Shown piece by piece: positions 13,205-14,796 of a DNA stretch of 64,000 nucleotides (positions within the stretch are counted from its first letter, which is position 1; each line of letters opens with the position of its first letter). Source of the stretch: Synechococcus sp. Nb3U1 (GTDB lineage: Bacteria > Cyanobacteriota > Cyanobacteriia > Thermostichales > Thermostichaceae). The DNA is taken from positions 1,274,079 through 1,338,078 of the forward strand of contig NZ_JAKFYQ010000001.1 in the NCBI RefSeq assembly GCF_021533835.1, given 5' to 3'. A program made the position numbers and the translations under genes. The notes below the pieces were generated by a model that was not told the DNA's origin, did not search any database, and saw only the letters and a list, made by a program, of their open reading frames with translations.

Positions 13205-13515
13205 CGGGCCACACACACTCCCACCCCGGTTTTACTGCCCAATTGCACGGGCGGCAAGGGGGAAGGGGTTACCCATTGCCGTGCCGCAGACTACGGGTTC
13301 TGGCTAGAACGGTGCCGCCTAGAAGCGCATGAAGTTTCCCCAGAGCCGTAATCGACAGAATCTGCAAATGAGGTATTGTAATGCTTGCCTCAGCACTACG
13401 CTTGTGGATCGCCCCCAGTGAAGTGGCATCCTTTGTCTACAGGTTTCGTCCTATCCCTAGCTGTATGCTCTAGCCCTATCCTAAAAACCCCCTCCCTTTT
13501 TTGGAGAAGCCAGCC
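13205..13515. other. Intergenic region upstream of divergent parA and protease genes
   Basis: A 311-base gap. I see no gene and no clean tandem iterons that would mark a parS site. An imperfect direct repeat around 13450-13482 (CCTATCCCTAGC and CTCTAGCCCTATCC) is the only local structure. Promoters for both flanking genes should lie here. Confidence 0.5.
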
Positions 13516-14796
13516 ATGCCCTACCGATCCGGGTCACTTCCCTCCCTAAGCTCTGCTCACTCTTGGAACCTGCCTTTGGGGCTCTGTCTTGCCCTAACCT
13601 TGAGCGCCTGCGGCGGCGGCGGCTCCAGTCGCTCCCTCCCCCCTGCCCCTGTTCTCTCTACCGGACGCATTGAGGGATCCCATTTTGATGACTTGAACGG
13701 CAATGGTCTACGGGATCCGGGAGAGCCGGGGCTACCGGGCATTACCACCTTCCTGGACTTGAATGGCAATGGCCGCCTCGATGCGGGAGAACCAAGTGCA
13801 ACCAGTGATGCCAGCGGCAATTTCCGCTTTTTTGACCTCCCCCCTGGCACCTATCGCGTCACCGCCATCTTGCCGCCGGGGCGGGTCTTTACCACACCGC
13901 GCTCTGGCTTAGGGCTAGAGCAAATTATTGGGGGCACCAACGCTCCCGCGGGGGCCTTTCCTTGGATGGTGGCCTTGGTGTTTGCAGATCGACAGGATCC
14001 GTTTCAGGGGCAGTTTTGTGGGGGATCCCTGATTACACCGGAATGGGTGCTCACAGCGGCCCATTGTTTCTTTAACAATCAAGGTCAGCAGGTGGTGAAC
14101 ACCCAAAATCTGGATCTGTTACTGGGCACCAACCGCCTAGAAGTTGGAGCCGGCCAGCGCATTCGTGCTGCTCAAATTGTCATCAACCCTGGCTACAACC
14201 CCCAACTGGGAGAACCAGGGGGCAACGATATCGCCCTAGTACGCCTGTCTCAGCCTATTTCCTTGGCTACCCTGCCTCTGGTGCAGCCGAACCAAACCAA
14301 CCTAACAGCCCCCGGCACTGCCGCCACCATCATCGGCTGGGGAGCTACCTCTCGCCCTGCCGGTCAGGAACCCAGCGGTTTTCCCAGAGATTTGCAGCAA
14401 GCCACCGTTCCCATTGTGTCCAATGCAGAGTGCAACGCGCCACAATCCTACGATGGCACCATCCTTGACAGCATGTTGTGTGCCGGCTTTCCTCAAGGGG
14501 GAGTGGATTCTTGCCAGGCAGATAGCGGTGGTCCTTTGATCGTGCCTAGTGGTGATGGCTTTGCCCTGGCGGGGATCACCAGCTTTGGGGTCGGTTGTGC
14601 TCAGCCCAATTTCTTTGGGGTGTATACTCGTGTGTCCAGTTTCTCGGGTTTTGTACAGTCGGTGATTGGCAGCACACCCACCCCAAGCCCAACTCCAACA
14701 GTTACTCCTACCCCTGGGGCAACCGCTTCATTCACTGTGAATTTAATCGGGGGTGAGGTGGTTTCGGGTCTCAACTTTGGCAGTCGAGCCCAGTAA
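13516..14796 (+). CDS. Lipoprotein trypsin-like serine protease with split SdrD/Cna-B-like domain
   Basis: A 426-residue exported protease. The signal ends in a lipobox, LTLSAC with Cys32, so the protein is probably a lipoprotein. Residues 48-130 resemble an SdrD_B/Cna-B-like beta domain with two acidic calcium-binding-like loops ([13 protein letters not shown] and [12 protein letters not shown]) and [15 protein letters not shown]. Residues 137-382 are an S1 protease: [10 protein letters not shown], His183 in LTAAHC, Asp238 in NDIALVRL, Ser337 in DSGGP, plus paired cysteines. After a Thr-Pro linker (386-401), [22 protein letters not shown] looks like the missing last strands of the same beta domain, so the protease appears to be inserted into it. 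ATG 13516 has GGAG upstream. The substrate is unknown. Confidence 0.88.

Follow-up and report, generated by a model that had tools for sequence, protein, structure and literature searches.

A single gene of Synechococcus sp. Nb3U1 encodes a trypsin-like protease flanked by what look like two pieces of an SdrD_B domain. This raises the question of whether the enzyme is nested within one domain and, if so, how it might be activated and held at the cell. We examined the gene within a stretch of 64,000 nucleotides (the window), to which all coordinates given without a locus label refer.

Gene layout and the protease domain

The gene is a 426-aa ORF on the + strand, running from an ATG at 13516 to 14796, and encodes a predicted lipoprotein containing a nested SdrD_B/S1 protease. 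Pfam matches, a GGAG ribosome site at 13503-13506 upstream of the ATG, and orthologues in every genus genome searched (6/6, the other five at 74-88% identity) support the call. Two further genera of the family carry the gene at 44-48% identity (L036 in G006 and L040 in G007). No operon partner that would explain the function was seen around the gene; the downstream neighbor reads as ribosomal protein S21, both in the window and in L003.

As read from the sequence, residues 1-31 (13516-13608) are a signal peptide with the lipobox LSA/C at its end, and Cys32 (13609-13611) is the predicted lipidation site. This residue is invariant among five aligned family members from three genera, and from the lipobox the protein is predicted to be a lipoprotein.

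The nested S1 domain spans residues 137-386 (13924-14673) and matches Pfam Trypsin (PF00089) at 1.4e-56 over profile positions 1-217 of 220. In a structure comparison, this part aligned with TMPRSS11D over 227 residues (Z 33.3, rmsd 1.7), while the Foldseek and VIA lists were full of trypsins and uninformative on the host domain. The catalytic triad of His183 (14062-14064), Asp238 (14227-14229), and Ser337 (14524-14526), counted from the ATG at 13516, is invariant in the aligned nested family, and by profile and triad the inserted domain is classified as an S1A trypsin-like peptidase. The ORF and alignment agree with the original prediction in its coordinates, its three catalytic residues, and its placing of the protease start at Ile137. 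That start, Ile137-Ile-Gly-Gly, is of the zymogen type, and both it (as [IV][IV]GG) and Asp336, which precedes the catalytic Ser, are kept throughout the aligned nested family. Asp331 occupies specificity position 189.

Gly193 is usual in the oxyanion hole of S1A peptidases and is not required for membership. The window protein has Ala335 (14518-14520) at this position, as do L003, L007, and L009 with their own Ala, while L010, L011, L036, and L040 have Gly. The Ala may lower protease activity.

The cysteines of the mature chain are the six that make up the three standard S1 disulfides plus the lipobox Cys; outside the mature chain, cysteines occur only in the signal peptide. Conserved Cys residues are absent between Cys32 and Cys168, and the pattern of a disulfide-tethered two-chain S1 protease is not present. 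The protein therefore both resembles and departs from the animal membrane-tethered S1A proteases enteropeptidase, TMPRSS11D, and hepsin: the triad, the [IV][IV]GG start, the Asp at position 189, and the three standard disulfides are shared, but the window protein lacks the Cys for a propeptide-protease disulfide, the proposed tether being the shared host domain, and the Gly193 of the animal members is replaced by Ala in its subgroup.

Evidence for a split host domain

The first part of the host domain, residues 49-131 (13660-13908), corresponds to SdrD_B strands A-F, as supported by Pfam, our own profiles, pLDDT, and a low within-genus pN/pS of 0.11. The Pfam SdrD_B (PF17210) match of 2.1e-11 covers profile positions 8-78 of 112 and scores 44.5 bits, above the gathering cut-off of 29.7. 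Two DxNxNG..D..GE calcium-type loops (13- and 12-residue motifs) lie in this part, and the host domain may depend on calcium. The shortened Pfam match was rejected as proof of a split, as an uninterrupted cyanobacterial domain was likewise matched to position 78 only.

The second part, residues 403-426 (14722-14793), supplies the last strands. Pfam fails to detect this tail, but a profile made from five unbroken repeats in another cyanobacterium (G056) gave two hits in every intact family member, one over positions 1 to about 80 and a second, at the C-terminus, over about 74-99. With a tail profile drawn from 26 uninterrupted non-family domains, the window tail scored 14.2 bits, and none of 20,000 shuffles scored as high. 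The same was true of the tails of L007, L011, L036, and L040 (0/20,000 each), and 3/20,000 and 31/20,000 shuffles did as well as the tails of L003 and L009. An earlier tail profile built from too few sequences was non-discriminating (108/3,000 shuffles as high for the window). When the N-terminal part and the tail were joined, they matched positions 3-98 of 99 in a profile of 78 uninterrupted domains, at 96.4 bits against 86.5 without the tail (+9.9 bits), and 0/300 shuffled tails were as good. The full SdrD_B strand set is reached only by this joining, across an interruption of 271 residues. The tail is nevertheless short and single members score modestly, as L009 does (31/20,000), which counts against the split.

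Conservation points in the same direction. The N-terminal part and the tail co-occur in eight intact nested genes from three genera, and all seven protease relatives without the N-terminal part (L004, L005, L037, L039, L041, L042, and L043) end without the tail. A ninth nested copy, L038 (G006:C224:1500-3600), loses its reading frame within the protease, downstream of the catalytic Ser; the N-terminal part is present, the tail GKYLITIGAGESVINVDFG lies in a different frame, and the copy is a pseudogene unless the assembly is in error. The genome that carries it, G006 (L036-L044), has 16 trypsin-like matches compared with one in the window's genome, an S1 expansion with various C-terminal domains. 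The nested proteases cluster together with 68% bootstrap support, and a single origin is likely. Beyond the family, no more nested trypsins were found in 386 cyanobacterial genomes searched, and the viral contigs searched contained trypsins and few SdrD_B domains.

Within the genus, pN/pS rises from 0.11 in the N-terminal part to 0.19 in the protease, 0.24 in the tail, 0.34 in the junction, and 0.39 in the linker (387-404). The tail is under purifying selection (0.24 vs 0.39 in the linker). The Thr/Pro linker that had been described between protease and tail is present at residues 387-402 (14674-14721) but is dispensable, since L036 and L040 keep the tail without it.

An AlphaFold model from a 54-row alignment had a mean pLDDT of 79.6, with about 80-94 in the N-terminal part of the host, about 85-98 in most of the protease, and values below 50 in the junction (130-137) and linker (389-399). 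The tail was modeled as two strands (403-410 and 415-425) at pLDDT 62-71, with 2 of the 54 rows covering it and the SdrD_B rows trimmed ahead of their own last strands to keep them from guiding it. The row set was chosen by testing random row subsets for correct alignment. A first 58-row alignment had been discarded for placing SdrD_B pieces on the protease, and a model from 4 rows only reached a pLDDT of 46. On the sequence evidence, the tail would dock onto the N-terminal part and so close the host domain.

Taken over several independent sequence directions and conservation across three genera, it is very probable that the domain is split by the nested protease. The original prediction of a protease inside an SdrD_B-like domain is thus borne out by profiles, shuffles, and conservation. 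Its proposal that C-terminal strands complete the domain also holds, although the 21-residue stretch given for them corresponds to residues 405-425 and not 403-425. The window domain agrees with SdrD B domains (PF17210, CnaB-like fold) in its N-terminal score above gathering, its calcium-type loops, and its last strands, which come from the tail, but differs from ordinary ones in that a whole enzyme separates strand F from the last strand.

Other inserts in the same loop

It had been suggested that the same split be sought in other proteins, and it was found in 14 other cyanobacterial genomes. They hold 16 non-family split SdrD_B domains, and in every one the break follows strand F and precedes the last strand. 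Proteins whose tails a loose pattern had misplaced in the automatic survey, among them L288 and the window gene, both counted as uninterrupted at first, were left out of the final comparison. The real tail beat all 300 shuffled tails in 13 of the 16, two propeller hosts were weaker (2/300 and 3/300), and the carbonic anhydrase host was weak (20/300); these tails were picked by profile or pattern, so that the scores lean upwards.

Subtilase (S8) inserts were confirmed by Pfam in five genomes, nested in the F-G loop at L274:6096-7703 (+), L287:6174-7820 (+), L261:4171-6066 (-), L281:6105-8018 (+), and L292:6147-7628 (+). Some of these hosts have a Calx-beta or Fervidolysin-type prodomain inside the insert. 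An alpha-type carbonic anhydrase (PF00194, 7.4e-38) occupies the loop at L279:4859-6049 (-), where the tail match is weak; the C-terminus of this protein is a PEP-CTERM-like segment. At L047:2-3637 (+), two successive SdrD_B domains are each split by a lactonase-type beta-propeller of about 330 residues, and a similar insert lies at L275:1501-2766 (+). Further inserts had no Pfam match. By this survey, the window gene is one case of a recurrent pattern. The subtilase, carbonic anhydrase, and propeller proteins (L261, L274, L279, L281, L287, L292, and L047) share the F-G loop insert and the host fold with the window gene, but carry unrelated inserts, and several keep the Lys, Glu, and Asn of an isopeptide bond.

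In CnaB-like domains, such a bond links the adjacent first and last strands, as in the SdrD_B example Lys159/Glu218/Asn248 given in a published survey (PMC12617251). The corresponding positions in the window host, Lys of the first strand, Glu of strand F, and Asn of the last strand, are His56, Ala117, and Ser423, which sets it apart from isopeptide-forming SdrD_B domains, and all three residues are missing in the tabulated members of the nested trypsin family. Among 78 uninterrupted cyanobacterial domains (L261-L320), Lys, Glu, and Asn are nearly all-or-none, with 64 having all, 11 none, and 3 a mixture (Lys-Asn association p = 5e-11, uncorrected for relatedness). This pattern appears to be an isopeptide-bond signature in cyanobacterial SdrD_B domains. 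Six split domains outside the trypsin family, subtilase hosts among them, keep all three residues, and covalent isopeptide closure across the insert is possible in those six. In the split domains alone, Lys-Asn covariation across the insert was not significant (p = 0.09 overall, 1.0 outside the family).

There are two other ways to read the tail. It could be an unrelated C-terminal hairpin that resembles the last SdrD_B strands by chance, leaving the N-terminal part as a self-sufficient half domain. A tail of only about 20 residues that Pfam misses leaves room for this, but we hold it to be highly improbable: 0/20,000 shuffles matched the tail in five members, profile positions continue exactly in all intact members, tail and N-terminal part co-occur, and the same split surrounds unrelated domains elsewhere. 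The tail could also complete the SdrD_B part of a neighboring molecule by strand swapping and so build surface chains or dimers. The tail-profile and joined-domain evidence fits this too, and a flexible linker of 16 residues would permit it, but L036 and L040 are nearly without a linker and nothing in this analysis points to oligomers, so that we consider swapping improbable.

Insertion into these folds is itself familiar. In PMC12617251, CnaA/CnaB-like folds of adhesins are described as accommodating inserted domains, most often isopeptide or adhesion ones (CnaB, vWFA, and the thioester domain). Both there and in the window protein, a loop of a CnaB-like fold takes up a further domain, but the insert here is an enzyme and its host is part of a cyanobacterial lipoprotein. 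The open-access papers searched yielded no account of an enzyme nested within an SdrD_B or CnaB domain, and the enzyme as insert is apparently the new element.

Proposed activation and tethering, and their meaning

The account that we favor for the window protein, and consider probable as a whole, combines intramolecular insertion into the F-G loop, an activating cut, and two chains held together by the host domain. The product would be a surface or periplasmic lipoprotein with its trypsin-type protease inserted in the loop that connects strand F to the last strand. Strands A-F and G would fold into one calcium-loop beta-sandwich near the membrane, where the lipid anchor would keep the host domain while the protease sits in the F-G loop, secured at its two ends.

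The protease would start out as a zymogen. Cutting the exposed junction (residues 130-136, 13903-13923, leading up to the predicted activation site; pLDDT < 50) just before Ile137 would switch it on, with the new N-terminus inserting beside Asp336 as in other S1 enzymes. Cleavage at this bond is probable, given that the zymogen-type start is conserved and the Asp ahead of the catalytic Ser invariant. Control by cleavage of the host domain had been predicted, and these residues speak for the cut itself, but not for damage to the host: the Ile137 bond lies in the disordered junction past strand F, where cleavage would release the N-terminus of the protease and spare the host domain.

Less favorable to this account is the P1 residue before Ile137: the window protein and L007 have Gln and not the Arg of L003/L008 and L009-L011, L036 has Leu, and L040 has Ala. 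As P1 is not conserved, autoactivation cannot be general. With their trypsin-like Asp189, some orthologues could cleave their own junction or one another's; the Gln of the window protein implies that another protease would be needed there.

After the cut, a lipid-anchored N-terminal chain and the protease chain would be joined non-covalently through the shared host domain. Many animal S1 proteases are tethered to their propeptides by a disulfide, and the shared host domain would stand in for that bond. We give even chances to such a clamp retaining both chains.

The nesting might instead be purely mechanical, a rigid calcium-stiffened SdrD_B stalk that grips the protease at both ends and so protects it from heat and proteolysis, while regulated cleavage and a two-chain form would not exist. 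The poorly conserved junction (pN/pS 0.34) and variable P1 would agree with this, as would the use of the F-G loop for carbonic anhydrase and beta-propellers, which need no N-terminal activation. On the other side, the [IV][IV]GG start and the activation-pocket Asp are kept in the aligned nested members, as they should be if the enzyme requires a free N-terminus, and we regard a merely mechanical role as rather unlikely.

More tentatively, and with somewhat more doubt than belief, the F-G loop of SdrD_B may serve cyanobacterial surface proteins as a general insertion cassette that takes up proteases of the S1 and S8 families, carbonic anhydrase, and propellers. The host would re-close, in several lines through a Lys-Asn isopeptide, and a protease could be cut free yet stay locked to the cell. 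The recurrence suggests a general way to display, and perhaps control, enzymes at the cell surface. If the favored account is true, a zymogen clamped by its re-assembled host after the activating cut would represent a tethering principle unlike the disulfide of animal S1 proteases. The repeated use of this loop for unrelated enzymes marks it as a site that naturally tolerates insertions, one that could be tested and copied to display enzymes. It also means that in many cyanobacterial SdrD_B proteins the true boundaries of the domain escape automated annotation.
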